In this document: positions 1,300 through 19,657 of the stretch, piece after piece
Layout of the letters: every line of letters starts with the position of its first letter
Numbering within the stretch: the first letter of the stretch is position 1
Source: a virus
Virus record (IMG/VR): IMGVR_UViG_3300012920_000107
Location: 1 to 37,258 of that record
DNA: 37,258 bases
Direction: 5' to 3' (one strand)
Notes under the pieces: generated by a model
The model's input: the letters and a program-made list of their open reading frames with translations, nothing else
Told to the model about the DNA's origin: nothing
Databases searched by the model: none
Made by a program: the position numbers and the translations under genes

Positions 1300-1332
1300 C
1301 ATTCCCTCATAAATATGTAATAAGAGGGAATG
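1300..1332 (+). promoter_or_regulatory. Hairpin covering ribosome-binding site, with T4-type late promoter in its loop
   Basis: CATTCCCTC (1300-1308) and GAGGGAATG (1324-1332) are perfectly complementary, giving a 9-bp stem. The right arm contains the Shine-Dalgarno GAGGG and the first ATG of the next gene. The 15-base loop starts with ATAAATA, so CATAAATA (1308-1315) is a one-mismatch T4-type late promoter. Initiation 6-7 bases downstream, near 1321-1322, would give an RNA lacking the left arm. Read-through RNA would instead fold and hide the start. T4 lysozyme gene e is controlled in this way. Confidence 0.6.
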
Positions 1333-2601: not shown

Positions 2602-2607
2602 AAATCA

Positions 2608-2615
2608 TATAAATA
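2608..2615 (+). promoter_or_regulatory. T4-type late promoter (TATAAATA)
   Basis: A perfect TATAAATA lies seven bases after the stop of the nuclease-like gene, in a 121-base gap. In T4 this octamer is the whole late promoter, read by gp55-containing RNA polymerase. It would drive the KxDG nucleotidyltransferase gene and the leader-bearing genes behind it. A sigma70-like promoter follows at 2673-2701, so the block can be read at two stages. Confidence 0.7.
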
Positions 2616-2672
2616 GTAGAGTAAATTGTTGATTTTAACCATGGATTTTATGAAAAAAAAGCAAAAAAGTGC

Positions 2673-2701
2673 TTGCCAAATGAATGGAAACTTTGTATAA
2701 T
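2673..2701 (+). promoter_or_regulatory. sigma70-like early promoter with A-tract upstream
   Basis: TTGCCA (2673-2678), a 17-base spacer and a perfect TATAAT (2696-2701). An A-rich tract (2653-2669, AAAAAAAAGCAAAAAAG) sits just upstream like an UP element. The predicted start near 2708 is 15 bases before the ATG at 2723. The same A-tract plus GCTTG arrangement recurs at 11417-11471, 33550-33608 and 33657-33703. Confidence 0.75.
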
Positions 2702-2722
2702 GGATGAAAATGAGAGAGAAAT

Positions 2723-3937
2723 ATGTTCAGTTTTAAAGGGTTTCAGACCCAAGACACAAATACACACTTGGAACACCTTGAAGATGATATCATCAATCGA
2801 GGGTCAAAAGGTGGCGATAACGCAATAAACTTTTTGAAGTCAGTAAGAAACATGCTGGCTGGTTCATCTCGTGGTAAGGCCAATGTAACTGTCAAATGGG
2901 ACGGTGCGCCTGCTATTATTTGTGGTATCAATCCAGAAAACGGCAAATTCTTTGTCGGCACAAAATCAGTATTCAATGTAACTCCTAAAATCAATTACAC
3001 TAATAGAGATATTGACAAAAACCATGGTGGTGAAGTTAATAAAAAACTAAAAGTGTGCCTTGCTTATCTTTCTAAACTAAACATTAAAGGTATTTTACAA
3101 GGCGATTTGTTATTTACAAATGACAAAAAGAACATAGCAATTGATGGTGAAAAGATGATTTCTTTTACACCTAATACAATCACATATGCAATGCCAGCTG
3201 ATAGTGCTATTGGTAAAAAGATTGCAGCTGCAAAAATGGGTATTGTATTTCACACACAATATAATGGTAAAGATATGAAATCTTTGACCGCTAGTTTTGG
3301 TACTGTAACAGGTTCATCAAACAGAAATGTATTTTTAGCATCTGCTCAATATAAAGATACAACAGGTTCTTCTACATTCAATCAAGGTGAACTGGCAAAA
3401 TTTGATGCACAACTAAGAATGGCTGAAGGTTCTTTATCAAAGGCAAAACCAATTTTAGATTTAATGTCAGCAAATGTATCAGACCAAATGTCAGTTGGTT
3501 TTCGTTTAAAGACATACTTTAATTATTATATCAAGAATTCAAATGCCAATATGGGCAAAGTAAAAGTTATGCAAGACCAGTTTAGAGACTACTTTGATAA
3601 CTTTATGAAAATGGAAATAGATAATAGAAAAACTGAAAAAGGTAAAGCACCTTATATTCAAAAAAGAAAAGAAGGTCTACAATTTATAGACAGAAATAGA
3701 AGCGCTTTATATTTTGCGATTGCAAGTCACATTACATTAGCAAATGCTAAAGACACACTATTAAAGAAAATGAACCAGATACAAAGTATTGGTCATTTCT
3801 TACGAACATCAAACGGGTACAAAGTGACAGCACCTGAAGGTTATGTTGCAGTTGATAAAGTTGCAGGTGCAATTAAATTTGTAGATAGACTAGAGTTTAG
3901 TAGAGCAAACTTTACAATGCCAAAAGGGTGGAATTGA
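2723..3937 (+). CDS. KxDG covalent nucleotidyltransferase (RNA/DNA-ligase-like superfamily)
   Basis: A 404-residue protein with the ligase/capping-enzyme signature. Motif I is VKWDGAPAI with the candidate nucleotidyl-acceptor lysine K58. GILQGDLLF (123-131) fits motif III and KMGIVFHTQY (171-180) fits motif IV. These match a cyanophage/pelagiphage family that I recall as DUF6267. No OB-fold or RNA-binding extension is obvious; the C-terminal half is helical. Homologues that I remember begin with a capsid-targeting-like leader followed by NTHMTHIED; here the same point reads NTHLEHLEDD after the short leader MFSFKGFQTQD, which lacks the terminal Glu. GAGAG at 2712-2716 is the ribosome-binding site. 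The true substrate (RNA, DNA or protein) is unknown. Confidence 0.72.
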   Translation: MFSFKGFQTQDTNTHLEHLEDDIINRGSKGGDNAINFLKSVRNMLAGSSRGKANVTVKWDGAPAIICGINPENGKFFVGTKSVFNVTPKINYTNRDIDKNHGGEVNKKLKVCLAYLSKLNIKGILQGDLLFTNDKKNIAIDGEKMISFTPNTITYAMPADSAIGKKIAAAKMGIVFHTQYNGKDMKSLTASFGTVTGSSNRNVFLASAQYKDTTGSSTFNQGELAKFDAQLRMAEGSLSKAKPILDLMSANVSDQMSVGFRLKTYFNYYIKNSNANMGKVKVMQDQFRDYFDNFMKMEIDNRKTEKGKAPYIQKRKEGLQFIDRNRSALYFAIASHITLANAKDTLLKKMNQIQSIGHFLRTSNGYKVTAPEGYVAVDKVAGAIKFVDRLEFSRANFTMPKGWN

Positions 3938-4512
3938 TGAAAACATTTAAACAATATTTCTTTGAGGCAATTAATAAACCAAAAATTATTATGATTGGTG
4001 GTCCAGGTTCTGGTAAGTCAACTTATTCTGAGATTATGTCTAAGAGACTAAACATACCACATATTTACACTGGTGATATGATGAGAAATTTAGCAAAACA
4101 AAATACACCAGAGGGCAGAAAAGTAAAAGATTTATTAGCACAAGGTAAATTTGCACCATTAGATATTGTTATAAATGCAGTAAAAGAAAGAACATCTAAA
4201 CCAGATGCTCAGAAAGGTTATATCTTTGATGGTTTTCCTAGAGATGTAGAACAAGCTGAGAAAATGGAAGATGAAAATATTGAATATGACTATGTGGTAA
4301 ATTTAGAAGTTAGTGAAAATGAGATTATACGAAGATTAACTTCAAGAGGTAGAGAAGATGACAAACCAGAAATCATTAAGAAAAGACTAGAGGTTTATCA
4401 TAAGAAGACAGCACCTTTACTAGATTATTATAAGAATGAGATAATAAATATTAAGGCAGAGGGTAGTACACCTGAAGTCATAGCAAATAAAATAATAGAG
4501 AAAGTAAAATGA
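3937..4512 (+). CDS. adk: Adenylate kinase-like NMP kinase with capsid-targeting-like leader
   Basis: A 191-residue nucleoside monophosphate kinase: Walker A GGPGSGKST (21-29), AMP-site TGDMMR (45-50), FDGFPRD (97-103), and a short LID around RGREDDKPE (137-145), as in short-LID adenylate and UMP/CMP kinases. It would convert NMP plus ATP to NDP. I chose the ATG at 3937, which overlaps the preceding stop (TGATG), over the upstream GTG at 3928. The first ten residues, MKTFKQYFFE, precede the kinase fold and resemble the T4 internal-protein leader MKTYQEFIAE, with Glu at the position where the prohead protease cuts. So the enzyme may be packaged in the capsid. Kinase call is strong; packaging is inference. 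Confidence 0.88.
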   Translation: MKTFKQYFFEAINKPKIIMIGGPGSGKSTYSEIMSKRLNIPHIYTGDMMRNLAKQNTPEGRKVKDLLAQGKFAPLDIVINAVKERTSKPDAQKGYIFDGFPRDVEQAEKMEDENIEYDYVVNLEVSENEIIRRLTSRGREDDKPEIIKKRLEVYHKKTAPLLDYYKNEIINIKAEGSTPEVIANKIIEKVK

Positions 4513-5204
4513 AGACTTTTGATGACATAAGATTTCAAGATTTAAAAGAGGGACTATATGACCCTAACATCTTTAAGGCATTTTTTCTTGCAGGTGGTCC
4601 AGGTTCCGGTAAAACATTTGTAACCAGAAATGCATTTGGTGGCACAGGTCTTAGAATGATTAATTCAGACAATGCCTTTGAAAGAGGATTAAAGAAAGCA
4701 GGTCTATCTCTTAAAATGCCAGATAGTGAAGAAGAAGCAAGAGATATGGTTCGTGCTAGAGCAAAAGCAACAACAAGTAATATGCAAGACCTATCAATTC
4801 AAGGTAGATTAGGTCTTGTTATTGATGGCACAGGTAGAGATTACGATAAAATATCTTATCAGATGAGACTATTAAAAGAACTAGGTTACGACACATACAT
4901 GATATTTGTAAATACCAGTTTAAATGTTGCATTAGAAAGAAACTCTAAAAGAGAAAGAAGTGTACCAGAATATATTACTAAAAAATCTTGGACAGATGTA
5001 CAAGCTAATATTGGTAAGTTTCAAAACCTATTTGGCATGTCAAACATGGTCATCATTGACAACAGTAAAGACGATAAAGAATTAACTACTCAAATTATGA
5101 ATAGAGTTTCAAAAGCAGTTAGAGGATTATTAGGTAAACCTATTAAGTCATACACAGCAAAAAGATGGATGGCTTCAGAAAGAAGAGCAAAAAGAAGAAA
5201 ATGA
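4509..5204 (+). CDS. Zeta-toxin-like P-loop kinase with capsid-targeting-like leader
   Basis: A 231-residue P-loop protein: Walker A AGGPGSGKT near residues 28-36, then a Walker-B-like LVIDGTGRD near 108-116, the pattern of zeta-toxin/AAA-type small-molecule kinases. Zeta toxins phosphorylate UDP-N-acetylglucosamine; phage homologues have unknown substrates. The first 14 residues, MKTFDDIRFQDLKE followed by G, form a leader ending in LKE/G, a perfect fit to the T4 gp21 cleavage rule (L/I)xE/(A/G/S). The C-terminus is strongly basic (RWMASERRAKRRK), which could bind DNA. It overlaps the adenylate kinase stop by 4 bases and the next start by 4. Confidence 0.75.
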   Translation: MKTFDDIRFQDLKEGLYDPNIFKAFFLAGGPGSGKTFVTRNAFGGTGLRMINSDNAFERGLKKAGLSLKMPDSEEEARDMVRARAKATTSNMQDLSIQGRLGLVIDGTGRDYDKISYQMRLLKELGYDTYMIFVNTSLNVALERNSKRERSVPEYITKKSWTDVQANIGKFQNLFGMSNMVIIDNSKDDKELTTQIMNRVSKAVRGLLGKPIKSYTAKRWMASERRAKRRK

Positions 5205-7519
5205 AAAAGTTTAGAGAGGTCATAGAAAGTATTATTGATATACCTAGAAGGACTTATGCGCCTAAGGTATTTGATGATGCTGAAACTAATGACCCTAAAA
5301 TTAAACCAAGTGTGAAAGCACAAATTGAGAAACAATTAAAGGAGTTTGAAACAGAATATCCTGTAATTAAGTATTCTCTAATAGGTTCTATTTTAACTAA
5401 ACGATATAGAAATGATGCAGATTTAGATATTAATGTATTGTTTGATGTACCAGTGGGTAAAAGGGAAGATGAAAGAGTTAGACTTTCTAAAAAGTATTTG
5501 TCTGCTAGTAATCCAGACAACATTCAAGGTAAGTTAATACCAGGTTCTGAACATCCTATTAACTATTATTTTATTACAGACGAAGCTACTTACGATAGTC
5601 AAAATCAAAAAGCAGATGCTGTATTTGACATTGAGCGTAATGTTTTTGTTAAGAGACCTGAAGAATTTGTTTTTGATATTGACATGTACATAAACGATTT
5701 TAATAGAAAAGTACAAGAGATTGATGTAGCAAAAGGCGAATTAAAAAGAGATATTATTGATTATAATGAGTTGACAGAATTATCTCCAAATGATATACTT
5801 AACCTACAAGATAAAATTAAGGATAAGTTAGAAGAGATAGAGGACGATTTGAAAGTGATAGTAAGAGTTGGTGATAATGTTGATGCAGAAAGAAGAGCTG
5901 CATTTGATAAAAACATGTCGCCAGATGAAATACAAACATACGGTGTTAAGAATAGATTACCTAAAAATGTTATCTATAAAATGTTAGAGAAGTACCACTA
6001 TATGAAGTTTTACAAAAAATGTAAAAAGATTTTAGAGGACGGTATCGTGACAGATAAAGAGATAGACGATTTAGAAATGCATGAAGCAAAAGGTAAATCA
6101 GTTTCTTTTGCATTTGGTAGATTTAATCCACCAACAATCGGCCATGAAAAACTAATTAAGAAAGTTAAATCATTACCTACAAATGATTACAAAGTTTATT
6201 TAAGTAGAAGTGAGGATCCTAAAAAGAATCCATTGTCACCAAGAGACAAACTTTCTATTATGAAAAAGATGTTTCCTCAACATGCAAGAAACATTGAGAT
6301 TAATCCTACAAACATGGTATTAGATATTGCTACAATGTTGTACAAGAAAGGTTACACAGATGTAACTATGGTTGCAGGTTCAGATAGAGTAAGAGAATTT
6401 GAAACTATACTAAAGAAGTATAACGGCGTATCATCAAGACATGGTATGTATGACTTTGATACTATAAAAGTTGTATCTGCTGGCGAAAGAGACCCGGATG
6501 CTGAAGGCGCTACAGGCATGAGTGCAAGTAAAATGAGAGCTGCGGCTGCCAAAGGAGATTTAAATAGTTTCAAAAAAGGATTACCTGCTGGTGCAGATGC
6601 AGAGGGTATTATGAAACAAGTAAGAAAAGGTATGAAATTGGCTGCTTCATATGGCAGTGTAGGTCATCATATCGGTACAAGAGAAAAACCAATTGCAAGT
6701 TTAGAACAATTTGAACAACAACAAATTAGAGACTTGTATATTCGTGAAATGATTTTTAATTTAGGTGATGAGGTTGATTATGTAAAAGAAGATATACAAG
6801 GTAAAGTCGTTAGACGAAGCACTAACTACATTGTTGTTGAAGATAAAAATAACAATTTACACAAAGCGTGGATTTGGGATTGTGTCCCAATAGCCGCAGA
6901 TAGAGAGGTAGAAGTGCGAGAATATAACTTAGATGTTGATTATGGCTTTGAAGCCGTATCACAAAAGACTGAGGACCTTGATGCTCAACCACAAGATAGA
7001 GATGTGAAAAAGAAAAAAGGTACTCAACCTAAAAAATATTATAAGAGTTTAAGTAAAGATGTTAAGAACAAGAGAGCTGACTACTTTAAGTCCAAAGATA
7101 CAACCAAGAATGACAACAAGCCAGCTCCTGGCGACAAGGATGCTAAGACAAAACCTAGTATTCACACAAAGAAATACAAGAAAATGTTTGGAGAGTTATC
7201 GCAAGAACTCAAAGACGCTTGTTGGTCAGGTTATAAACAAGTCGGACTCAAAAAGAAAAACGGAAAAATGGTACCAAACTGTGTTCCGGAATCTTATGAG
7301 ATAGGTGCTGACTATGCGAACCACGCCAAAGACATAACACCAGGCGAAAAACCAGATGCACCACCAGTTGATGCAAAAGATAGAGGTAAACCTACTAAAA
7401 ATGATGTAAAAGAATGGGCTGCTTTAGATACCACAATAGATAAATATAAGCAACGATATAAAGAAGAGTGGAAACACAAACTTGATGAAGTGGTATCGAA
7501 GATGATGGAGAAATTATAA
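5201..7519 (+). CDS. Multidomain protein: DNA-pol-beta-like NTase, cytidylyltransferase/NMNAT-like domain and phage modules
   Basis: A 772-residue protein; the ATG at 5201 overlaps the previous stop (ATGA). Leader MKKFREVIE/S (1-10) is capsid-targeting-like. Residues 60-82 carry LIGSILTKRYRNDADLDI, the GS plus DxD signature of pol-beta-type nucleotidyltransferases (D74, D76). Residues 301-320 carry FAFGRFNPPTIGHEKLI, the TxGH form of the HxGH motif, and 439-446 carry GMSASKMR, replacing ISSTxxR, as in cytidylyl/nicotinamide-nucleotide adenylyltransferases. LEMHE/A (291-296) separates the two enzymes like a cleavage site. Later come an SH3-like segment (520-565), a Lys-rich linker, KKMFGE/L (660-666) and the phage motif CWSGYKQVGLKKKNGKMV (674-691). 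Enzyme folds are clear; substrates are unknown. Confidence 0.8.
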   Translation: MKKFREVIESIIDIPRRTYAPKVFDDAETNDPKIKPSVKAQIEKQLKEFETEYPVIKYSLIGSILTKRYRNDADLDINVLFDVPVGKREDERVRLSKKYLSASNPDNIQGKLIPGSEHPINYYFITDEATYDSQNQKADAVFDIERNVFVKRPEEFVFDIDMYINDFNRKVQEIDVAKGELKRDIIDYNELTELSPNDILNLQDKIKDKLEEIEDDLKVIVRVGDNVDAERRAAFDKNMSPDEIQTYGVKNRLPKNVIYKMLEKYHYMKFYKKCKKILEDGIVTDKEIDDLEMHEAKGKSVSFAFGRFNPPTIGHEKLIKKVKSLPTNDYKVYLSRSEDPKKNPLSPRDKLSIMKKMFPQHARNIEINPTNMVLDIATMLYKKGYTDVTMVAGSDRVREFETILKKYNGVSSRHGMYDFDTIKVVSAGERDPDAEGATGMSASKMRAAAAKGDLNSFKKGLPAGADAEGIMKQVRKGMKLAASYGSVGHHIGTREKPIASLEQFEQQQIRDLYIREMIFNLGDEVDYVKEDIQGKVVRRSTNYIVVEDKNNNLHKAWIWDCVPIAADREVEVREYNLDVDYGFEAVSQKTEDLDAQPQDRDVKKKKGTQPKKYYKSLSKDVKNKRADYFKSKDTTKNDNKPAPGDKDAKTKPSIHTKKYKKMFGELSQELKDACWSGYKQVGLKKKNGKMVPNCVPESYEIGADYANHAKDITPGEKPDAPPVDAKDRGKPTKNDVKEWAALDTTIDKYKQRYKEEWKHKLDEVVSKMMEKL

Positions 7520-8064
7520 TGTTGAGTTTTGCAGATTATAAAGACAGAATGAGTAAGTCTATTCACTATCACATAGAGAATAACATACCGTTCGCAGAAA
7601 ACATTTATAGAGTACACAGTGAAGAGTTTTATAATTTGTTTAAAGAAGCTAGAAACCTATGGCAAGAAGGTTTATTGACCGAATTGACAGAGTGGGACGA
7701 GCATTTATTAAAAACTGATATCGGAGAATTTGCAACTTATGAGGGTCAAAAAGTCCCTCTGGATTGTCCGATACAAGAGGAAGATAAAAAAGATGTGGAA
7801 CTTAATAAGCCAAAAAAAGGCGGACCTAAAAAGTTTTATGTTTTCGTTAAAGACCCGAGTACAGGCAACATTAAAAAAGTTACTTGGGGCGATACGACAG
7901 GCCTTAGGATTAAACTAAGTAATAAGAAGGCCAGAAAAAGTTTTGCTGCTAGGCATAGATGTGACCAGCAGAAAGATAGAACAAAAGCTGCATATTGGGC
8001 TTGTAATATGCCAAGATATGCAAAAAGTTTAGGTCTATCAGGTGGCGGAAATTTTTATTGGTAG
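7519..8064 (+). CDS. Conserved T4-like phage protein with C-terminal Cys/His/Arg-rich domain
   Basis: A 181-residue protein that starts one base before the preceding frame ends. It begins MLSFADYKDRMSKS, then an acidic helical part with the conserved-looking DIGEFATYEGQKVPLDCP (68-84). The second half (104-181) is a distinct domain: KKFYVFVKDPSTGNIKKV, then KKARKSFAARHRCD (136-149), YWACNMPRYAKSLGL (159-173) and a closing GGGNFYW. I remember this domain from many marine phage proteins, attached to different N-termini, but not a function. Two cysteines (C148, C162) and H146 could bind metal. Its position suggests a virion-associated role. Confidence 0.65.
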   Translation: MLSFADYKDRMSKSIHYHIENNIPFAENIYRVHSEEFYNLFKEARNLWQEGLLTELTEWDEHLLKTDIGEFATYEGQKVPLDCPIQEEDKKDVELNKPKKGGPKKFYVFVKDPSTGNIKKVTWGDTTGLRIKLSNKKARKSFAARHRCDQQKDRTKAAYWACNMPRYAKSLGLSGGGNFYW

Positions 8065-8367
8065 ATGATGAATGGATTTGTGGAGGCAATGGCGATGGCA
8101 AATGTACCATATATACAATTTGGCAAAGGCAAAGCCATTGTTAGACAGTTTCAAAATGATGTTGATGAACAAGAATTAGTATGGCATAAAGACAAAAAAG
8201 ATAGAACATTTAAAGTTATATCTGGTGTGAATTGGAAGTTTCAGCATGATAATGAGTTACCATTTGTTATGAAGATAGGTGATGTTATAAAAGTTAAAAA
8301 GGAAAAATTTCACCGTGTTCACAAAGGGCAAGGTAAACTAATTATAGAGATAGAGGAACATGACTAG
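8065..8367 (+). CDS. Small cupin-like phage protein
   Basis: A 100-residue protein starting directly after the preceding stop. The pattern LVWHKDKKDRTFKV (38-51), W57-x-FQHD, LPFVMKIGDVIKV and KFHRVHKG (81-88) resembles a one-domain cupin: H41 and D43 on one strand, H83 and H86 on the partner strand, with G72 in the turn. Similar small proteins occur in cyanophage T4-like genomes with unknown ligand. Metal binding and fold are inferred from spacing only. It sits inside the leader-bearing gene block, without a leader of its own. Confidence 0.6.
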   Translation: MMNGFVEAMAMANVPYIQFGKGKAIVRQFQNDVDEQELVWHKDKKDRTFKVISGVNWKFQHDNELPFVMKIGDVIKVKKEKFHRVHKGQGKLIIEIEEHD

Positions 8368-9916
8368 ATACAGACAAACATTTACAGATGCATACGCCAA
8401 AGTCAAAGAACTTGGCGAAGCAAAGTACAGATATGACGGCAAAGTTGTCTTCATTTCAAAAGCAGAATTTAAAAAGATTGCGAAAGATTATAAGAACGCA
8501 ACACCAGGACAAGAGAGAATGGTGGTACTTGACCCTAAAACACAGGCAACAGTATCAGCACCTGTTAAGTTTGAAGAGTTTGAACTTAAAGAAGGTGACC
8601 ATGAAATATCTATGGCTCGTGGTGAATTAGAAGCGATATCTGATAAAGCCTTAAAACTTTCCTCTATGTTACAAGGTAAGACAGATGACGCTCAATTAGA
8701 AGCGTGGGTACAATCTAAAATTACAAAAGCAAAAGACTACATCAACTCTGTTACTGATTACATGGAATATAATCCTGACATGAACGAAGCAAAAACAGTA
8801 TGTCCTAAATGTAACGGTGAGGGTTGTGACCACTGTAATAATAAAGGTTACCACATCACCGAAGATGTTAATGCCGATATCAAAAAGGCAATGAGTAAAT
8901 TTGGTGGTATTGCACACAGAGTTACTAAACAAGGTAATAAAGTTGTTGTAAAAGTTGATAGTAATGATGAAGAAGATGCTCAAAAGGCACTTAAAATGCA
9001 TCCACTTTACATTTCTGGTAAATTAAGAGTAATGCCAGAAAGTTTAGAAGAAAGTTTTAATGATGCTCAGATTGCAAAACTAAAAAAAGAATATGAGCCA
9101 TTAAGAAATAAAAAGATTTCAGTTGACAATGCAAATAAACTTGGTGCTATGTTTACTAAGTTTGACAAAGATAAGAACGCATTAGAAAAGTTATATGGTG
9201 GTGATATACCTTTTATCTCTACTATGGCAATGACTAGACTTATGACTAAACATAATTATAAGGCTGCCGACTTAAAGAAAATTAGAAAAGAGAGTGTTGA
9301 ACTAGCAGATGAATTAGAAATGTTAGATGAGGCACAAATGTTGAATGAAGCTGAAGCAACTATTCATGTTTCAGATAAAAAGAAACAAGATAACTTAGTA
9401 CACTTATGTAAACAAGTTGGTATCAAAACAACTGTAAGTGGTAATAAAGTACATTTAAAAGGTATCTTTAGAAGAGTTATGGATATTTCTCTTGCTATGC
9501 AAAGAAATGGTCTTAAAGTAGAAGAAAAAGGAAAAGATGATGCATATGCCATTGGTATGGCACAAGCAAAGAAAATGACAGGTGATGAAAAACCATTGAA
9601 AAAATCTACTATCAAAAAAGGCCATGAGATTGCAAAGTCTATTATGAAAGACGAAGAAGTAGAACATCCAGCAAAAATGAAGTATGAACAAATTAAAGGT
9701 TTAAAAAATAAGGCTGAGAAATCAGGAATGCCTTATTCAATTTTGAAAAAAGTATATGATAGAGGTATGGCCGCTTGGAGAGGTGGTCACAGACCTGGCG
9801 CAAGTCAACAGCAATGGGCTTTTGCTAGAGTAAATTCATTTGTAACAAAATCCTCAGGCACATGGGGAGGCGCTGACAAAGATTTGGCTGCCAAAGTTAG
9901 AGGGAGTAAAAAATGA
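8360..9916 (+). CDS. Modular virion protein or polyprotein with candidate prohead-protease sites
   Basis: A 518-residue mosaic. Leader 1-20 (MTRYRQTFTDAYAKVKELGE) ends in LGE/A. Modules follow: 21-78; 79-143, starting GDHEISMARGELEAIS; a DnaJ-type half zinc finger with C148, C151, C156, C159 (CPKCNGEGCDHC); 165-231; 232-330; and a C-terminal domain around 447-497 (SGMPYSILKKVYDRGMAAW, then HRPG and ARVNSFVT) that I recall as DUF5824. Junctions carry LKE/G (76-79), MNE/A (141-144), LEE/S (229-232), LDE/A (322-325) and LNE/A (328-331), all like T4 gp21 sites. I infer a precursor cut during prohead maturation. No enzymatic motif is seen. It overlaps the cupin-like gene by 8 bases. Confidence 0.7.
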   Translation: MTRYRQTFTDAYAKVKELGEAKYRYDGKVVFISKAEFKKIAKDYKNATPGQERMVVLDPKTQATVSAPVKFEEFELKEGDHEISMARGELEAISDKALKLSSMLQGKTDDAQLEAWVQSKITKAKDYINSVTDYMEYNPDMNEAKTVCPKCNGEGCDHCNNKGYHITEDVNADIKKAMSKFGGIAHRVTKQGNKVVVKVDSNDEEDAQKALKMHPLYISGKLRVMPESLEESFNDAQIAKLKKEYEPLRNKKISVDNANKLGAMFTKFDKDKNALEKLYGGDIPFISTMAMTRLMTKHNYKAADLKKIRKESVELADELEMLDEAQMLNEAEATIHVSDKKKQDNLVHLCKQVGIKTTVSGNKVHLKGIFRRVMDISLAMQRNGLKVEEKGKDDAYAIGMAQAKKMTGDEKPLKKSTIKKGHEIAKSIMKDEEVEHPAKMKYEQIKGLKNKAEKSGMPYSILKKVYDRGMAAWRGGHRPGASQQQWAFARVNSFVTKSSGTWGGADKDLAAKVRGSKK

Positions 9917-11385
9917 GAAACAATTTTGAAACAAAACCTGGCAGCTTAGAAGAAGCAATCGCCGGTATAACAATTAAAGACGAACACAAATACCAACAGT
10001 TATTCAAAAAAGAATTAGAGAAAGCTGGTAAAGGTATCGGTGCAATGACACCTGCCGAAAAGAAAGCATTTTTCAATAAGATTGATAAAATGTACAAAGG
10101 CAAAAACGAAGACTTGGATTCTAAAGATGTACCTAAAGTTAAAGATGTCGCAAAACAATTAAAGAAAGCTGTACAAGCACACGGCCAACAAGCAAAAGAT
10201 TTAGAAAAAGCAATTAAGACGGAAGGCACATGGGCTATTCCTGATACACCACAAAAAAAGATGCAGTTGAAAAAACTATTACAAAGTCCTATCAAACTTG
10301 GTAAAGAAGGTGATGACGCTTCAGATAAGTTATATGGTTTAGTTGGTGACGATAGTTTGTTTGATGACTTATATGTGGCTGGTAAGAAAAATCCTAATGG
10401 TGATGCAAGACCTCTTGTTAGAAAACACATGAAGAGATTAGGTATCAAAGAAGAAGTTGAAGAGAGTGTCGAGTATGTTGAATACATGGCAAAGAACTCA
10501 GGCCAAGCAGGCACAATTGCTAACATGTTTAAAGGTAAAACAGGTGGTGGAGAAATTCATAAATCTGGTTCAGAGGTTAGAATTGACGCTGCTAAGAATA
10601 TTGAGGCTATACACAAACAAGTTATGGCAAAATTTCCAGACACAAATGTTATGACTGCTGAAGCATATCTTGACGAAATGTTTGGTAACAAAGTAGTTGA
10701 CCCTACTACAGCAGCTGCATTAAGATTGTATCTAAAAGGCAAAGCAGGCGGAGCACCTTTTCCACCAGTTGTAGAAGGTATGATGAGTAAGATTGACCAA
10801 ATGGAAAAAGAAGGTAAGTCTGCCGCTGAGATTGCAAAGGCTTTAAAACTAGATGTTAAAACAGTAAAAGGCATTTTAGGTGAAACTCATATGGGGCAAA
10901 CTGCTAAGGCAAATGCACAACAGAAAAATGCTAAAGGTGAAAAAGAAATAATTAAATCAATCACTGAAACAATTGTTGATATGTGGAAAGAAGCTGCTGA
11001 GAAAAAAGAAAAGAAAAAAGATATAGCTCCTGACGCAGATAACATTGACGAGAAAGAAACTGAAGAAGAAGAAAAGAAACCTGAAAAGGAATCTTCAGAT
11101 AAATTAAAGGCTGATGTAGCGAAAAAAGATGACGAGATTGCTATTCTAAAACAAAAAATTGAACAAGAAAAGAATAAAGCTATTCAACAAGACACTTCTA
11201 AGATGGTAAATCCTGAAACTGGTGAACCATTATTACAGGTCGGTGTCGCATATAAACACCTTAGAGATAAGATGAAAAAGGAAGCAGTTGATAAAAAAGA
11301 ACAAATAAAGAACAAGAAAACAACTGATACAGACAAATCTGCCTCTAAAGTGGATGTAAATCCAGAGATAGAATACGATAAATAA
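9913..11385 (+). CDS. Second modular, highly charged virion-type protein
   Basis: A 490-residue Lys/Glu-rich protein whose ATG overlaps the preceding stop. It lacks the MKTF form but has GSLEE/A at 11-15, a good prohead-protease site. Other candidates are IKE/E (178-181), VEE/S (182-185), LGE/T (322-325) and ITE/T (350-353). A recognisable module, DDSLFDDLYVAGKKNPNGDA (146-165) with RPLVRKHMKRLGIKE behind it, occurs in other marine phage proteins. Residues 300-321 (EGKSAAEIAKALKLDVKTVKG) read as a helix-turn-helix. The last 130 residues are an acidic then basic coiled coil. Its role could be a scaffold-like internal protein or a DNA-binding passenger; neither is shown. Confidence 0.65.
   Translation: MRNNFETKPGSLEEAIAGITIKDEHKYQQLFKKELEKAGKGIGAMTPAEKKAFFNKIDKMYKGKNEDLDSKDVPKVKDVAKQLKKAVQAHGQQAKDLEKAIKTEGTWAIPDTPQKKMQLKKLLQSPIKLGKEGDDASDKLYGLVGDDSLFDDLYVAGKKNPNGDARPLVRKHMKRLGIKEEVEESVEYVEYMAKNSGQAGTIANMFKGKTGGGEIHKSGSEVRIDAAKNIEAIHKQVMAKFPDTNVMTAEAYLDEMFGNKVVDPTTAAALRLYLKGKAGGAPFPPVVEGMMSKIDQMEKEGKSAAEIAKALKLDVKTVKGILGETHMGQTAKANAQQKNAKGEKEIIKSITETIVDMWKEAAEKKEKKKDIAPDADNIDEKETEEEEKKPEKESSDKLKADVAKKDDEIAILKQKIEQEKNKAIQQDTSKMVNPETGEPLLQVGVAYKHLRDKMKKEAVDKKEQIKNKKTTDTDKSASKVDVNPEIEYDK
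11377..11384 (+). promoter_or_regulatory. Degenerate late-promoter-like element (GATAAATA)
   Basis: GATAAATA overlaps the stop of the modular protein. It is one base from TATAAATA and lies 95 bases upstream of the -10 end of the next promoter, the same distance as at 2608-2701. Both copies share TTGATTTTA (2629-2637 and 11390-11398) in between. Since GAT AAA TAA also encodes the last two residues and the stop, function is doubtful. Confidence 0.3.
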
Positions 11386-11443
11386 ATCGTTGATTTTAGT
11401 ACAAAAAAAGCGCCATTTTTTTCAAAAAAAGTGAAAAAAGTGC

Positions 11444-11471
11444 TTGCCTTTTACTGTGGATATGTTATAGT
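11444..11471 (+). promoter_or_regulatory. sigma70-like extended -10 promoter with A-tracts
   Basis: TTGCCT (11444-11449), a 16-base spacer and TATAGT (11466-11471) preceded by TGT, an extended -10. Upstream A-tracts (AAAAAAAGTGAAAAAAG, 11424-11440) mirror those at 2653. Start would fall near 11478, which rules out the ATG at 11477 for the following gene. Confidence 0.7.
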
Positions 11472-11497
11472 TAGGTATGATTAAAAAGGATAACACT

Positions 11498-11986
11498 ATG
11501 AAAAATTTACCTAGAATATACCTAGATATGGACGGTGTTCTATTCGACTTTGAGAAACAGTTGGTAGACACTGTTAAGATGCCAATTTCCCAATGGATGA
11601 AACTTGATAGACGAAAAAGGTGGGATCCTGTAATCGCTAGAAAAGATTTCTGGTCTAGTGGACCTTGGCTAAACGAGGGTAAGAAACTTTACAATTTCGT
11701 AAAGAAATATAATCCACATATACTAAGTGCATATGTAGAACATGCCCATGACCCTAATTGCATTCCAGGCAAAATGAAATGGGCTATGAGAAACACTAAT
11801 ATAACTAGAGATAAGATTAACCTAGTTATGAGAAGTGAAAAAAAGAACTATGCAAGTCCTGGTTCAATTCTAATTGATGACTATGACAAGAATACTAAAG
11901 AGTTTAACCAAAGAGGTGGAACTGGTATTACTTTCAAGTCAGCTAGTCAAACAATCGCAGAGTTGAAAAAACTCGGTTTCAAATAA
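11498..11986 (+). CDS. HAD-superfamily phosphatase, 5'(3')-deoxyribonucleotidase-like
   Basis: A 162-residue HAD hydrolase. Motif I is YLDMDGVLFDF with D10 nucleophile and D12 acid/base; ILSAY fits motif II; the acidic motif IV is LIDDYDKN. The DMDGVLxDF form and small size match deoxyribonucleotidases and similar phage phosphatases. The start at 11498 has AAAAAGGA 8 bases upstream; an upstream in-frame ATG at 11477 would coincide with the predicted transcription start, so I reject it. It is a one-gene unit: own sigma70-like promoter in front and a hairpin-plus-T-run directly behind. A role in nucleotide pool control with the ribonucleotide reductase is plausible, not shown. Confidence 0.8.
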   Translation: MKNLPRIYLDMDGVLFDFEKQLVDTVKMPISQWMKLDRRKRWDPVIARKDFWSSGPWLNEGKKLYNFVKKYNPHILSAYVEHAHDPNCIPGKMKWAMRNTNITRDKINLVMRSEKKNYASPGSILIDDYDKNTKEFNQRGGTGITFKSASQTIAELKKLGFK

Positions 11987-11993
11987 TATCCCT

Positions 11994-12001
11994 TATAAAT
12001 A
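11994..12001 (+). promoter_or_regulatory. T4-type late promoter inside terminator region
   Basis: A perfect TATAAATA between the HAD gene and the structural gene at 12057. Its last A is the first base of the terminator hairpin. Initiation 6-7 bases downstream (about 12007-12008) would fall near the end of the left arm, so RNA from this promoter could not form the terminator. Confidence 0.75.
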
Positions 12002-12037
12002 TAGGTACTATATAACAAATTGAGTACCTATTTTTTT
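12001..12037 (+). terminator. Rho-independent terminator after HAD gene
   Basis: ATAGGTACT (12001-12009) and AGTACCTAT (12023-12031) form a perfect 9-bp stem with a 13-base loop, followed by a run of seven T (12031-12037). It lies 15 bases after the HAD stop and would end the early transcript there. Confidence 0.75.
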
Positions 12038-12056
12038 AACTAAGGGAGAGAATAAT

Positions 12057-12338
12057 ATGTCAAGTTGGGGAAAAGCAGATGCAGCCGCTAGCGCACCGCT
12101 ATGGGCTCTTATGCAATTAGCAACAGAACAAACAGACGGTAATCGTACTACTTTGTTCGAAGATACTACAGCAGACGCTTTCATTTCAGGTCAAACTATT
12201 GGGTTATTCAACTATGCAGATGGCGAAGTCGCAGACGGAGCTGCTCATGCAGGTTGGAACTTAAAAATAACTGGTTCTGGTGGAAGAGCAGGTAGAATAC
12301 AACATCAAACTTTAGTGGCATTAACAGACGCCGCTTAA
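12057..12338 (+). CDS. Small conserved structural-type protein
   Basis: A 93-residue Ala/Gly/Thr-rich protein beginning MSSWGKADAAASAPLWAL. The segments TLFEDTTADAFISGQTIGLF and HAGWNLKITGSGGRAGRIQ resemble short virion proteins that I remember from T4-like cyanophages, usually encoded beside fibre or neck genes. AAGGGAGAG at 12042-12050 is a strong ribosome-binding site, and the gene lies right behind a late promoter, fitting an abundant late product. No catalytic motif is seen. A decoration or fibre-associated role is a guess. Confidence 0.7.
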   Translation: MSSWGKADAAASAPLWALMQLATEQTDGNRTTLFEDTTADAFISGQTIGLFNYADGEVADGAAHAGWNLKITGSGGRAGRIQHQTLVALTDAA

Positions 12339-12346
12339 TAAAAACC

Positions 12347-12378
12347 TTATACGAGGGGGCTTCGGTCTCCTCGTATAA
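12347..12378 (+). other. UUCG-capped 14-bp hairpin overlapping late promoter
   Basis: Bases 12347-12360 pair with 12365-12378 (12 Watson-Crick plus 2 G-U pairs), closed by C(TTCG)G, an exceptionally stable RNA loop. No T-run follows on this strand, so it is more likely an RNA 3'-end stabiliser or processing stop for the preceding late gene than a classical terminator. On the other strand the stem is followed by GGTTTTTATT. The right arm shares GTATAAA with the late promoter at 12374. Confidence 0.7.
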
Positions 12379-12381
12379 ATA
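12374..12381 (+). promoter_or_regulatory. T4-type late promoter (TATAAATA)
   Basis: Perfect TATAAATA that begins inside the right arm of the UUCG hairpin. Start would be near 12388, leaving a leader of about 60 bases before the gene at 12450. That leader contains a short CCCC-ACAAA-GGGG stem (12422-12434) just ahead of the ribosome-binding site AGGAG. Confidence 0.75.
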
Positions 12382-12449
12382 TATTAACAAAGTGATTGTG
12401 TCAACTGGCACAAGTAGCATTCCCCACAAAGGGGGTTTAGGAGATAAAA

Positions 12450-12908
12450 ATGGCAGATAAAAAAATCACACAGCTGACCGATTTAGGTCAAGCTTTAGCC
12501 GCAGTAGATTTATTTCATGTGGTAGATGACCCAAGTGGTACACCTATTAACAAGAAAGTATCGGCTGCAAATATATTTAATAACATTCCAACATGGTTAG
12601 GCTTAGGAGCGGATTCACAGCAAATCACTGCTGATGGTTCATCAACAACGGCACCTAATTTAACAACAGCAATTACTGAAATTAATGCAACTTCAGCAAC
12701 ACACTCATGTACACTTGCTGACGGTACAGATGGTCAAATTAAAACTATCTTAAATACATCAACTGGTGGTACAAATGCTATCACAATTACAGTTACTAGT
12801 TTTGATAATTCAACAATTACACTTGACGCTCCAGGCGAAACAGTTACTTGTTTGTTTAAAAATTCAAAATGGTATGTAATAGGTGGTAATAACCCGACAA
12901 TCGCTTAA
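12450..12908 (+). CDS. Fibre-like structural protein
   Basis: A 152-residue Thr/Ala/Asn-rich protein. The N-terminal module MADKKITQLTDLGQALAAV followed by DLFHVVDDPSGTP and NKKVSA is a recurrent base of head or tail fibre proteins in marine phages. The rest (residues 60-150) is a beta-rich segment with TITVTSFDNSTITLD and a tryptophan near the end, typical of pectin-lyase-like or fibre tip folds. Strong AGGAG ribosome-binding site; own late promoter at 12374. Structural role is likely; which fibre it belongs to cannot be told. Confidence 0.72.
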   Translation: MADKKITQLTDLGQALAAVDLFHVVDDPSGTPINKKVSAANIFNNIPTWLGLGADSQQITADGSSTTAPNLTTAITEINATSATHSCTLADGTDGQIKTILNTSTGGTNAITITVTSFDNSTITLDAPGETVTCLFKNSKWYVIGGNNPTIA

Positions 12909-12923
12909 CATTGAGGAATAATT

Positions 12924-13124
12924 ATGGCTATATCAAAAGAAAAATTGATTGAAGAACGAGACAATTTACAAGCTCAATTTGATACTGTTAGACAAGAAAT
13001 TGTAAAAGCAGAAAAACAAGTTGAACAAATGAAAGGTAATTTGAACGCTCTCAACGGAGCTATTCAACAAACCAATAAATTAATTGGTATGTTCGAAGAG
13101 GTAAAAGAAGATGAAAAAGTTTAA
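12924..13124 (+). CDS. Small coiled-coil protein
   Basis: A 66-residue protein that is almost entirely one alpha-helical hairpin. Heptad-like spacing runs through EERDNLQAQFDTVRQEI and KQVEQMKGNLNALNGAIQQ, with a short Asn-Ala turn near residue 40. It resembles short prefoldin-like or fibre-chaperone proteins placed next to fibre genes. It overlaps the next gene by 14 bases. No specific function is recognised. Confidence 0.65.
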   Translation: MAISKEKLIEERDNLQAQFDTVRQEIVKAEKQVEQMKGNLNALNGAIQQTNKLIGMFEEVKEDEKV

Positions 13125-13317
13125 GTCTTTTATAAAAGAAAAACACTTTGACGATTTCGAAGAGGATTTGTTGCGTGAAGCACCACCTAACACTGCTGAT
13201 GCTATGAAAAGGTATAAAGCAGGTAAGGCAGGTTTCACCGACAAGGCTCATTTAAAAGCTAAAGGTCTGATAGCTCGCTCTGACGGAGAGAAGCGTAAAT
13301 CAGATAAGTATAAGTAA
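13111..13317 (+). CDS. Small protein with capsid-targeting-like leader and prohead-protease site
   Basis: A 68-residue protein in two parts. Residues 1-23, MKKFKSFIKEKHF to DLLRE, form an amphipathic leader; LRE/A at 21-24 is a perfect prohead-protease consensus, and a second possible site is IKE at 8-10. The remaining basic domain (APPNTADAMKRYKAGKAGF, then TDKAHLKAKGLI and RKSDKYK) occurs in other marine phage proteins as I remember them. After cleavage a roughly 45-residue Lys-rich peptide would remain, a size and charge like T4 internal peptides. Packaging is inferred. Confidence 0.7.
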   Translation: MKKFKSFIKEKHFDDFEEDLLREAPPNTADAMKRYKAGKAGFTDKAHLKAKGLIARSDGEKRKSDKYK

Positions 13318-13326
13318 GAGGAAAAA

Positions 13327-13764
13327 ATGAAAACATTTAAACAACATATAAAAGAAGTAATGTCACCATTAGGTATTGGCACTTCTGGTCTTGACGGCAC
13401 CCATGTTGGTGACGGGTCAGTAAGTCTAGCTAATATCGAAGATGCTGATGTTCTAAAAAAGGTAAACGCTTATGTTGGTAGTATTGCTGAAAGAGAATAT
13501 TTAAATCCTCAGGCAGCAGTTGACCAATTGAGAATGAATTTGAACAAAATAGGATTAACAGTATCACAAGTTGATTGCGAAGGTGATAAAGGTACAGTTA
13601 ATGCTGAAGTTACACAGTTTGGCGGAAGATTTGGTAAAGATGTGGACGGACAAGATATTAATGATGATGGTATTTCTCATAGAAAAGAGGGCGGCCTTAA
13701 ATTAGAAGTTAAATACGAAACATTACAATCTGGTACATCTAAAGTTTACGCTAAATTAGTTTAA
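13327..13764 (+). CDS. Conserved protein with capsid-targeting-like leader
   Basis: A 145-residue protein. Leader MKTFKQHIKE is near-identical in its first six residues to the adenylate kinase leader (MKTFKQ) and ends in IKE, a prohead-protease-like site, although V rather than A/G/S follows. The body contains DGSVSLANIEDADVLKKVNA, YVGSIAEREYLNPQ and FGGRFGKDVDG near 30-115, a pattern that I remember from T4-like cyanophages. It looks like a compact alpha/beta domain with no catalytic motif. GAGGAAAAA at 13318-13326 sits directly before the ATG. Virion association is inferred from the leader. Confidence 0.72.
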   Translation: MKTFKQHIKEVMSPLGIGTSGLDGTHVGDGSVSLANIEDADVLKKVNAYVGSIAEREYLNPQAAVDQLRMNLNKIGLTVSQVDCEGDKGTVNAEVTQFGGRFGKDVDGQDINDDGISHRKEGGLKLEVKYETLQSGTSKVYAKLV

Positions 13765-13779
13765 TTACTAGGAGCGTGA

Positions 13780-14142
13780 ATGTTTAAGGAAATTACCAAA
13801 GACAATTGGTTATTATTTGCACAAAATAGTTATGATAATCCAACACTGGATAAAGAAGTTGAGTTTTATGAAGATATTAAAAGATTAAAATATCTTAAAA
13901 GGTTATTTCGAAAGTATGAAATAACTGGTGACATAAAAGTAAGACTAGCAGTTAATCACATTATAGTTTTACAAAATGTCTTTGGTGCCGAAGCAGCTAT
14001 AACTTTAATGCTGTTTAGGATAGATAAGAAATATTGGAATATTTTGAAACCAATTTTAGATTATCTAAGTTATCTTTATCCTCACGAACTAAACGATATA
14101 CCACCAGATATAAAAATAGTAAAAGAGTTACAGAACCTATGA
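13780..14142 (+). CDS. Conserved T4-like marine phage protein (DUF7207-like)
   Basis: A 120-residue all-helical protein. The order of segments NWLLFAQNSYDNPTL, EFYEDIKRLKYLKRLFRKY, LAVNHIIVLQNVFGAEA and a closing DIPPDIKIVKELQNL matches a family that I recall as DUF7207, always in this neighbourhood of T4-like marine phages. Function unknown. TAGGAGCGTGA at 13769-13779 provides the ribosome-binding site. The stop overlaps the next start (ATGA). Confidence 0.7.
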   Translation: MFKEITKDNWLLFAQNSYDNPTLDKEVEFYEDIKRLKYLKRLFRKYEITGDIKVRLAVNHIIVLQNVFGAEAAITLMLFRIDKKYWNILKPILDYLSYLYPHELNDIPPDIKIVKELQNL

Positions 14143-14612
14143 GTAGAACGATTGATGCATTGATAACCTACAGAGTTGTAAAACTCATGGTTACGCCTTA
14201 TGAAAAAACTGAGGCGTTTAAGAAAGGTATTATTGATAAAGATGGTAAGAACTTAATACCATTTAGAAAAGTACCTTTTCAACATAAAAAACATTATACA
14301 ATACTTCATAGATTTGTTTTCAACATAAAGAAAATAATGAACAAAGTTGGTCTCGGTAGTAGGTTAGGAACATTTGGTGTCGCATTAGCATTATTAATTA
14401 AAGAAGATTCCTCTTACGCTTCTCATAAAGATGCTATTGAAGCAGGTGTTTTAACTTACTTAAAAGAACAAAATTTGTATGATGAAATATTAAACGAAAG
14501 TAAAGATATACCAGAGATAGATGCTGAACCATTAATGACATGTTTCGGTGTTGACATTTATGAACAGAATGGAGAACTGGTATCGGAGTACGATTATGCC
14601 AAAACATTATAA
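14139..14612 (+). CDS. Conserved T4-like marine phage protein, function unknown
   Basis: A 157-residue basic helical protein. I use the ATG at 14139 (MSRTIDALITYRVVKLM), which overlaps the previous stop, rather than an upstream in-frame start at 14034 that would lie deep in the neighbouring gene. Conserved-looking segments are TPYEKTEAFKKGIIDKDGK, HKKHYTILHRFVF and NKVGLGSRLGTFGVALAL. Homologues that I remember carry a capsid-targeting-like start and sit beside DUF7207-like genes; this one lacks an obvious leader. No function is known. Confidence 0.7.
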   Translation: MSRTIDALITYRVVKLMVTPYEKTEAFKKGIIDKDGKNLIPFRKVPFQHKKHYTILHRFVFNIKKIMNKVGLGSRLGTFGVALALLIKEDSSYASHKDAIEAGVLTYLKEQNLYDEILNESKDIPEIDAEPLMTCFGVDIYEQNGELVSEYDYAKTL

Positions 14613-14961
14613 AGAAATGATGGACGAAATCATCAATAAGATGGATGAAGATGCGCCAGCAAATTCAGTAGCAGGTGGTGGTGTTGATATGGCGCCTAAT
14701 GCCAAACACCCATTAACAAAGTCTCATAACAAATATAAAAAAGATAATGAGGCTGAAGATATGTTAAGAAGAACCATTATGAAAAAATTAGGCAAACAAG
14801 TAAAAGAAGAAAACGATAACAATAATGTCACACTAAGGGGTGTTTTAGACAATCTTAATAAAATTGAAAAGATATCAGACGAATATCTAGGTGTTAATGA
14901 AGAAGTTAAGATTGTAGAAGAAGAAAAATATGAAACCTTTAAAGACAAATACAATGCTTAA
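14596..14961 (+). CDS. Charged virion-type protein
   Basis: A 121-residue protein. The ATG at 14596 has GGAG at 14585-14588, giving MPKHYKEMMDEIINKMDEDA; earlier in-frame starts lie inside the previous gene. DEDAPANSVAGGGVDMAPNA near 17-36 is a motif that I associate with modular T4-like virion proteins, and MDE at 16-18 is a weak protease-like site. The rest is helical and acidic, ending in a Glu-rich stretch. It overlaps the preceding gene by 17 bases and the next by 8. Role unknown. Confidence 0.62.
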   Translation: MPKHYKEMMDEIINKMDEDAPANSVAGGGVDMAPNAKHPLTKSHNKYKKDNEAEDMLRRTIMKKLGKQVKEENDNNNVTLRGVLDNLNKIEKISDEYLGVNEEVKIVEEEKYETFKDKYNA

Positions 14962-15421
14962 AAAGTTTTCTGAATACCTAGGACTATCAACTATTAGAGT
15001 TGGTGGTTTAGATAGTATGCATCCTGTGGCAAGTTTAGGTCCTACAGACAGACCACCTAAAAAAGATAGAAGTAGAGACATGAGGGCGGTTGGTCTAAAC
15101 GCTGAGAAAAACCCTAGAATACCTAGAAAAAAAGGCCAAAAAGCTGGTTCGGACAAACACTCAGACTTATACACAGATGAAAACCCTAGAGGCACAATTC
15201 ATGGTCTAGGTTTCACAGATGCAGAAAAAGCTAGACAATCAGTGAGAAAAATTAAGGGGTCTGGTAAAACACACGCACATAAAATACAGGCTGCTATTGC
15301 AATGTCGCAGAGGGCAAAGGTGGCAAGTGAGAGGGCTAAGGATCCTGAGAAGAAAAAGGACTTAGGTGCAGCCCACAAAGTTTACCAGGCATATATAGAC
15401 CAGATTAAAAAGGATAAATAA
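14954..15421 (+). CDS. Basic modular phage protein
   Basis: A 155-residue Lys/Arg-rich protein. The ATG at 14954 gives MLKKFSEYLGLSTIRVGG, a leader-like start; an in-frame ATG at 14930 would add eight residues and cannot be excluded. Middle: GPTDRPPKKDRSRDMRAVG. The C-terminal domain (about 95-155: GFTDAEKARQSVRKIKGSG, KTHAHKIQAAIAMSQRAK and AAHKVYQAYIDQIKK) recurs in marine phage proteins and is predicted helical. It could bind DNA or pack in the head; neither is shown. It is the last member of the leader-bearing group. Confidence 0.65.
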   Translation: MLKKFSEYLGLSTIRVGGLDSMHPVASLGPTDRPPKKDRSRDMRAVGLNAEKNPRIPRKKGQKAGSDKHSDLYTDENPRGTIHGLGFTDAEKARQSVRKIKGSGKTHAHKIQAAIAMSQRAKVASERAKDPEKKKDLGAAHKVYQAYIDQIKKDK

Positions 15422-17606: not shown

Positions 17607-17613
17607 ATAGTTT

Positions 17614-17730
17614 ATGGATTACGGTACCCTTAGTATTATTATTTGGAGTAGCATTGTAATATATGGCGCATACAAATTTTATAGTTTTATGCATGGTCTT
17701 AATCCTTACGACTTTTCAAAGCGTAAGTAA
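17614..17730 (+). CDS. 38-residue single-span membrane protein overlapping next gene
   Basis: An open frame starting MDYGTLSIIIWSSIVIYGAY and ending GLNPYDFSKRK. It has one membrane helix (about 5-20) and a short basic tail. Its last 68 bases overlap the start of the 527-residue secreted protein in another frame. GGGAGGG at 17594-17600 lies 13 bases ahead, slightly far for a ribosome-binding site. I remember similar tiny membrane proteins at this place in related phages, which supports it as real. Confidence 0.55.
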   Translation: MDYGTLSIIIWSSIVIYGAYKFYSFMHGLNPYDFSKRK

Positions 17731-19653: not shown

Positions 19654-19657
19654 TCTA

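Follow-up and report, generated by a model that had tools for sequence, protein, structure and literature searches.

Why should proteins whose bodies have nothing in common all start in the same way? This question is raised by an IMG/VR virus contig of 37,258 bases (IMGVR_UViG_3300012920_000107, of whose record it is the sole contig; referred to here, at its full length, as the window), in which, as read from the sequence, five unrelated proteins begin with a short leader of the MK-x-F/Y type that ends in a hydrophobic residue, any residue and Glu. Their genes all lie on the plus strand in a putative cargo/virion locus that extends from the gp41 helicase to the gp61 primase (1330-15421, plus strand) and is syntenic with HTVC008M gp126-143 and Melnitz genes 15-31, in which the gene order is partly preserved. 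The gene order of the window (gp61 primase, nrdA, nrdB, genes of the 2OG-oxygenase type and glycan genes), together with its homologies, places it among the T4-like Kyanoviridae of SAR11 and methylotrophs, with the Pelagibacter phages HTVC008M and Mosig EXVC030M and with Melnitz, a further relative in this group.

Very probably, this leader targets proteins to the capsid in the manner of the T4 internal proteins, i.e. it is a peptide whose cargo is docked, cut by gp21, retained and injected. In T4 the internal proteins reach the prohead core by means of the capsid-targeting sequence (CTS), which suffices to encapsidate GFP or a nuclease (PMC3012670). The T4 internal proteins share this leader only and, after injection, inhibit distinct type IV restriction enzymes (PMC12373910; PMC9391042). 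By analogy, the leader would dock unrelated cargo proteins in the core of the prohead, its protease gp21 would cut after the junction Glu at maturation, and the mature enzymes would be kept in the head alongside the DNA and delivered into the host on infection. The predicted cargo set consists of an adenylate kinase, a zeta-like kinase, a pol-beta/NMNAT-like nucleotidyltransferase and two small proteins; their packaging, cleavage and injection in the window phage itself we infer from the comparisons described below.

Five leaders and their junction glutamate

The adenylate kinase (AK; 3937-4512) carries the 10-residue leader MKTFKQYFFE/A (3937-3966; the slash marks the junction). Its Pfam ADK domain (1e-44) starts at residue 19, PDB entry 8pvw is matched at 4e-36, and the GGPGSGKST (P-loop) and FDGFPR motifs are intact. 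Residue 16 of the protein aligns with residue 2 of the bacterial adenylate kinases in the PDB, and the leader is therefore an N-terminal addition relative to the solved enzymes. The zeta-toxin-like/AAA_33 kinase (4509-5204) begins with 14 residues, MKTFDDIRFQDLKE/G (4509-4550); Zeta_toxin (PF06414; 2e-11, 44 bits, over the cut-off) and AAA_33 (2e-11) score equally, and the zeta toxin 1gvn in the PDB is matched from residue 20 onwards (1.4e-4). A zeta-like homologue of the jumbo phage Atu_ph07, which lies within a 778-aa protein and has no such leader context, was set aside.

The third protein combines a pol-beta-type nucleotidyltransferase with an NMNAT/cytidylyltransferase-like domain (Pfam NTP_transf_2 and CTP_transf_like). 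Its gene (5201-7519) has its true ATG at 5201, within a mechanically called open reading frame (ORF) of 5165-7519, and encodes the 9-residue leader MKKFREVIE/S (5201-5227). CTP_transf_like (PF01467) is narrowly over its cut-off (22.1 bits vs 21), the PHROG cytidyltransferase profile is matched at 6e-69, and this part of the protein is homologous to the virion proteins S-SCSM1_91 (41%) and S-CREM2 gp154 (32%). Further downstream, a small basic protein (13111-13317) starts with MKKFKSFIKE, followed by a second site, LLRE/A (13111-13179), and its orthologues keep starts of the type MKKFK[ST][FY][IV]xE. Past the second site its body shows 75% identity to the C-terminus of HTVC008M gp128 (170 aa), where it comes after an internal leader-like stretch, GFKEFIMKYLE/Q. 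The fifth protein, of 145 aa and with no assigned function (13327-13764), begins with MKTFKQHIKE/V (13327-13356), a leader kept in its orthologues from Melnitz (MKNFKNHIAE), HTVC008M (MKSFKDFQNVNE) and viral contigs.

According to Pfam, the five bodies are mutually unrelated (ADK; Zeta_toxin/AAA_33; NTP_transf_2 with CTP_transf_like; two orphans). An earlier, sequence-only reading of this DNA, which had pointed to shared MKTF/MKKF leaders ending in Glu on five unrelated proteins, is thus borne out for each gene that it named. It had also given MKTYQEFIAEA as the start of the T4 internal proteins, which is correct for ipII and ipIII; IPI begins with MKTFKEFTSTTTPVSTITE/A instead, a sequence closer still to the leaders of the window.

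A pattern taken from T4, M[KR]x[FYL]x2-8[LIVFM]xE, was compared with a null model of column-shuffled N-termini from five genomes and the window. The shuffled N-termini gave 0.0045 matches per gene, i.e. 0.25 expected in 57 genes vs 5 observed (Poisson P ~7e-6), and the stricter 10-residue form, to which three of the five window leaders fit exactly, gave 0.009 expected vs 3 observed (P ~1e-7); the finding itself helped to shape the pattern, which makes both P values optimistic. By these counts the leaders are non-random. Of the proteins in the T4 segment, only ipII and ipIII match the 10-residue form. Enrichment of the strict pattern in the locus relative to the rest was found in Melnitz (P=0.008), and was individually not significant in HTVC008M, S-CREM2 and S-SCSM1 (P 0.08-0.18).

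The comparison of N-termini was made with orthologues taken from IMG/VR. Across the marine relatives the leaders differ in both sequence and length (3-14 aa), and the junction Glu is constant. In the nucleotidyltransferase family Glu ends all 27 distinct leaders (3-13 residues; e.g. MRLLE/S, MKTFKE/S, MRFKDFINE/S, MKQFKDYILE/S and MKTFLE/A), always before a fixed body start, [SA][IV]IDIPR, and position P3 is mostly I or L. The zeta family has 52 distinct leaders (6-14 residues) with Glu at the junction in 52/52 and L or I at P3 in 52/52, followed by G[LV]YD; the junction Glu is therefore invariant in 79/79 distinct leaders of the two families together. Among 29 AK orthologues with identities as low as 44%, F4 and E10 are the sole invariant columns of the ten-residue leader, which ends in FFE in the clade of the window and in LSE, IKE or ITE in others. 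A leader that varies in this manner, and yet never loses its terminal (L/I/F/V)-x-Glu in these families, fits a docking peptide that ends in a protease site rather than a functional part of the enzyme.

Virion enzymes and maturation sites of relatives

Mass spectrometry (MS) of purified virions has detected cytidylyltransferase/NMNAT homologues in the cyanophages S-SM1 (PMC3037559, T4-GC190), S-SCSM1 (PMC9602691) and S-CREM2 (PMC10665884). All three of these detected proteins, which are the ones examined, bear the leader (MKKFSAFLNE/A in S-SM1, MKSFLQFLKE/A in S-SCSM1 and MKNFSSFLTE/A in S-CREM2), and the same leader is found on the cytidylyltransferases of P-TIM68 (MKSFTSFFTE/A) and ACG-2014f (MRSFLTFLTE/A). 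The authors of the S-CREM2 study list six non-structural virion proteins, two of which are tail-region endolysins (PMC10665884). We found that the remaining four enzymes are all leader-bearing, namely a SAM lyase (MKDFDSFLEE), a kinase (VKRFDAFLTE, with a GTG start), a nuclease annotated as Cas9 (...LRFASFMAE/A) and the cytidylyltransferase. Moreover, six of the seven S-CREM2 ORFs with the core motif near their start encode virion proteins detected by MS (P=4e-4), and the association of motif and virion proteins is also seen when S-CREM2 and S-SCSM1 are combined (P=0.004). The interval between gp41 and gp61 of S-SCSM1 contains seven genes (89, 90, 91, 92, 93, 95 and 97) annotated as virion proteins, an annotation derived from the MS virion proteome of this phage (PMC9602691).

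As judged from their N-termini, the presence of the leader on virion enzymes argues against contamination. Neither a leader nor a targeting sequence is mentioned in the S-CREM2 paper (PMC10665884), and no targeting mechanism is proposed in those passages of the cyanophage virion papers that were found. One of the four S-CREM2 enzymes, gp12 (7704-10313), is annotated as a Cas9-like virion protein and has its leader behind an 18-residue extension; its Cas9 label is doubtful, because Pfam finds no family in it.

The maturation sites of the capsid proteins were also compared with the leader ends. Both gp23, with the site AFMSE/AAPTNSTG, and gp21, with the site AEYLIE/E, are encoded on an 86.7-kb contig from a close relative, the AK of which shares 85% identity with that of the window. 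The gp23 sites of other phages are FLSE/A (Melnitz and Mosig), LLTE/A (S-CREM2), SFLAE/A (S-SCSM1) and LTE/T (S-SM1), and that of T4 is SFLTE/A, in which Glu is residue 65. Since the gp23 and gp21 sites within the same phage group resemble the leader ends, leaders and capsid maturation sites share one motif. Cutting at such sites is established for T4, and by analogy both the leader ends and the capsid sites would be cut in these phages. The gp21 gene was present on 7/18 long contigs with leaders vs 2/22 controls (P=0.03), an association that is positive but weak, because the contigs are fragments.

Breadth of the leader and competing explanations

When IMG/VR was scanned at the DNA level for exact matches to MKTFxxFIxE, at least 120 stretches with at least 131 matches were returned. 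Among the matches listed, 125/131 are at gene starts, and the bodies behind them fall into at least 66 unrelated protein clusters. In control scans of the whole collection, replacement of Glu by Lys gave 58 stretches (28 gene-start-like) and replacement by Asp gave 42. Many of the Asp variants keep an (L/I)xE a few residues downstream (e.g. MKTFQQFIDDIPELDE/SSMSR beside MKTFKEFINE/SSLSR), and these variants conserve the junction rather than the length. A co-chaperonin-like family that fits the leader pattern was classified as a false positive, because both E and K variants of it occur.

The Pfam families recognized on leader-bearing bodies include CTP_transf_like, DUF6267, adenylate kinase, AAA_33/Zeta, S-AdoMet_lyase, ART-PolyVal ADP-ribosyltransferase, HicA_toxin, HD_4, GNAT, glucosaminidase and HNH. 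SAM lyases (PF23780) with the leader occur in several IMG/VR contigs as well as in S-CREM2 (3837-5081), in whose virions the enzyme was detected by MS. The leader-bearing SAM lyase is a candidate injected anti-restriction enzyme, and the S-CREM2 protein shows that the virion of at least one relative contains a plausible enzyme of this kind. The same leader precedes HicA-toxin (12007-12630), HD_4 (1226-1783) and ART-PolyVal ADP-ribosyltransferase (6037-6813) domains in IMG/VR contigs, and these proteins are possible injected effectors.

Several observations weigh against capsid targeting. The (L/I)xE site of the gp21 rule, as formulated in the sequence-only reading, is present throughout the zeta family (52/52), while AK (FFE) and the nucleotidyltransferase (VIE) depart from the strict T4 rule by having F and V at P3, although both have orthologues with L or I at this position. 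The Glu itself is absent from the HTVC008M cytidylyltransferase (MKTLKELLRKK), and it has been lost from the DUF6267 protein in the clade of the window. Neither gp21 nor gp23 is encoded on the window contig. All of the virion data come from cyanophages rather than from the window phage or its Pelagibacter-type relatives, and neo-N-termini were not reported in those MS studies. Taken by itself, S-SCSM1 shows no excess of the core motif in its virion proteins (1/6, P=0.66), and SSCSM1_30, a gene with the leader, went undetected in its virions. Finally, the S-CREM2 authors state that the CsCl preparations used for MS may hold contaminants (PMC10665884).

It is conceivable that the leader only docks proteins to the prohead core, where they would act as scaffold or core parts that are degraded or lost at maturation, so that no active enzyme is delivered. 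T4 gp22, gp67 and gp68 do have LxE sites, gp22 is annotated as degraded by gp21, and the locus of the window also encodes several small basic proteins. We nevertheless consider such a role unlikely, taking into account that orthologous enzymes are found in mature CsCl-purified cyanophage virions and in purified S-SM1 virions, that the catalytic folds are intact (P-loop and ADK domain), and that the T4 internal proteins behind this leader are known to reach the host in active form by injection (PMC12373910). The leader is amphipathic, and might thus be a localisation tag of another kind (e.g. for membrane or replication-site association), with the MS detections representing contaminating abundant late proteins, a concern raised by the S-CREM2 authors themselves. 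Contaminants, however, should share no leader, whereas the four non-lytic enzymes of the S-CREM2 virions are exactly the leader-bearing ones; the match between gp23 maturation sites and leader ends is a further reason to judge this explanation very unlikely.

Extremely unlikely, in our opinion, is a likeness that stems merely from a compositional bias in the AT-rich starts of phage genes (MK... for efficient initiation), with no role for the Glu. MK starts are indeed common, and the co-chaperonin-like family fits the pattern by chance with E or K. Composition does not account, however, for the excess of window leaders over shuffled N-termini, for the predominance of Glu far above Lys or Asp, for the LxE just downstream in many Asp variants, or for a junction Glu that is invariant through indels. 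Head targeting of the T4 type, as proposed in the sequence-only reading, is supported along five independent lines, namely the conservation of the junction, the match to the gp23 and gp21 sites, the leader on virion enzymes of relatives, the number of leader-bearing clusters and the sufficiency of the T4 CTS.

Taken more broadly, and with somewhat better than even confidence, we propose that in marine and other T4-like phages a portable head-targeting leader may serve as a cargo code of general use, distributed by shuffling over dozens of families of enzymes and effectors (SAM lyase, ADP-ribosyltransferase, HicA-like toxin, HD_4-domain protein, GNAT, kinases and NMNAT). Each phage would thereby deliver a tailored payload at DNA entry, before gene expression, and this payload would be readable from genomes alone. 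Given that the leader is also found on enzymes detected in purified virions of cultured relatives, the window phage and these relatives probably bring preformed enzymes into the cell along with the DNA. Speculatively, AK and the NMNAT-like transferase could feed the nucleotide and NAD pools before phage transcription or counter defences that deplete NAD or nucleotides, the zeta-like kinase might modify a host sugar-nucleotide or RNA, and the cargo might, again speculatively, serve as a defence against first-line immunity. If this is true, ocean phages alter host nucleotide/NAD metabolism and disarm restriction at time zero of infection. The leader would provide a sequence-readable mechanism for enzymes that have repeatedly been seen in cyanophage virions and were earlier suspected to be contamination, and, for the abundant viruses of the ocean, it would convert uncharacterized genes into a list of proteins predicted to be injected.

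Known systems and other genes of the window

T4 already provides the mechanism itself; the novelty is in the range of enzymes carried and in an account of how previously unexplained enzymes come to be in virions. The T4 proteins IPI, IPII and IPIII resemble the window cargo in their start (MKTFKEF..., MKTYQEFIAE/A), Glu junction and non-homologous bodies, and a gp21-type protease is present in the relatives of the window; they are, however, small anti-restriction inhibitors (PMC12373910), whereas the cargo considered here consists of enzymes (AK, zeta-like kinase and NMNAT-like transferase) from a marine phage of the Kyanoviridae type, behind leaders of 3-14 aa. The virion NMNAT/cytidylyltransferases of T4-like cyanophages (T4-GC190) share with it a homologous domain, the leader and, in S-SM1 and S-SCSM1, the same locus, and differ in that the clade of the window fuses this domain to an N-terminal pol-beta-type nucleotidyltransferase. 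The T4 ADP-ribosyltransferase Alt is a packaged and injected enzyme behind a gp21-cleavable N-terminus; compared by description, it is alike in being an enzyme carried in the head, and its enzyme class is unrelated. The ejection proteins of giant phages (inner body of SPN3US/phiKZ), also compared by description, are likewise head proteins that are processed by a prohead protease and ejected, but they belong to another phage lineage and have larger propeptides.

In the open full-text literature, the combination of 'capsid targeting' and 'cyanophage' led to a general T4 review only; subscription papers were outside this scope, and earlier notice there is possible. For the same topic and marine myoviruses, titles and the beginnings of abstracts among the papers listed contained nothing on point. 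The cargo is new in kind, comprising metabolic and nucleotide enzymes in T4-like phages of the ocean, apparently with a large shuffled repertoire.

Among the other genes of the locus, that of the DUF6267 protein (2723-3937, plus strand; Pfam 1e-122) encodes, in the clade of the window, a degenerate leader without Glu (MFSFKGFQTQ/D). Its relatives elsewhere have full leaders (MKTFKKFIAE/DKNLH and MKTFADFITE/Q), and those of HTVC008M and Melnitz have LLVE/D and YITE/D, respectively. The protein encoded at 14596-14961 (plus strand), with MPKHYKEMMDEIINKMDE/DAPANSVAGGG, is a possible further cargo and a weaker case; the DAPAN...AGG type of sequence after Glu is also found in Melnitz_30 (KTE/DAPANASGS). 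The DUF6267 protein and those starting at 7519 (MLSFADYKDRMSK/S), 8360, 9913 and 14930, in which the Glu is absent or the start is loosely similar in the clade of the window, were not counted as leader bearers; relatives of the 7519 protein, like those of the DUF6267 protein, have (L/I)xE junctions. Two more pattern matches in the window, one at an upstream start for the ORF at 14930 and one in a glycosyltransferase strand at 29455, are spurious. The 5'-nucleotidase-like gene (11477-11986) is leaderless here, but in HTVC008M and Melnitz the orthologues are extended at the N-terminus by approximately 12-18 residues with Glu sites, which suggests that a leader may have been gained or lost within this gene family.

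The 'complete genome' record of Mosig EXVC030M (MT647606) has both of its ends inside genes, and neither uvsX nor the gp41 helicase nor a cargo locus appears in its feature tables; for these reasons the record is probably without a segment of the genome. A region at 16818-19998, with hypothetical proteins and signal-peptide-like starts, contains the sole near DNA match to Mosig in the first 20 kb of the window (approximately 80% identity). Further along the window, a gene of the purine-nucleoside-phosphorylase family (27786-28499; PNP_UDP_1, 4e-31) is located inside the nucleotide/glycan region.

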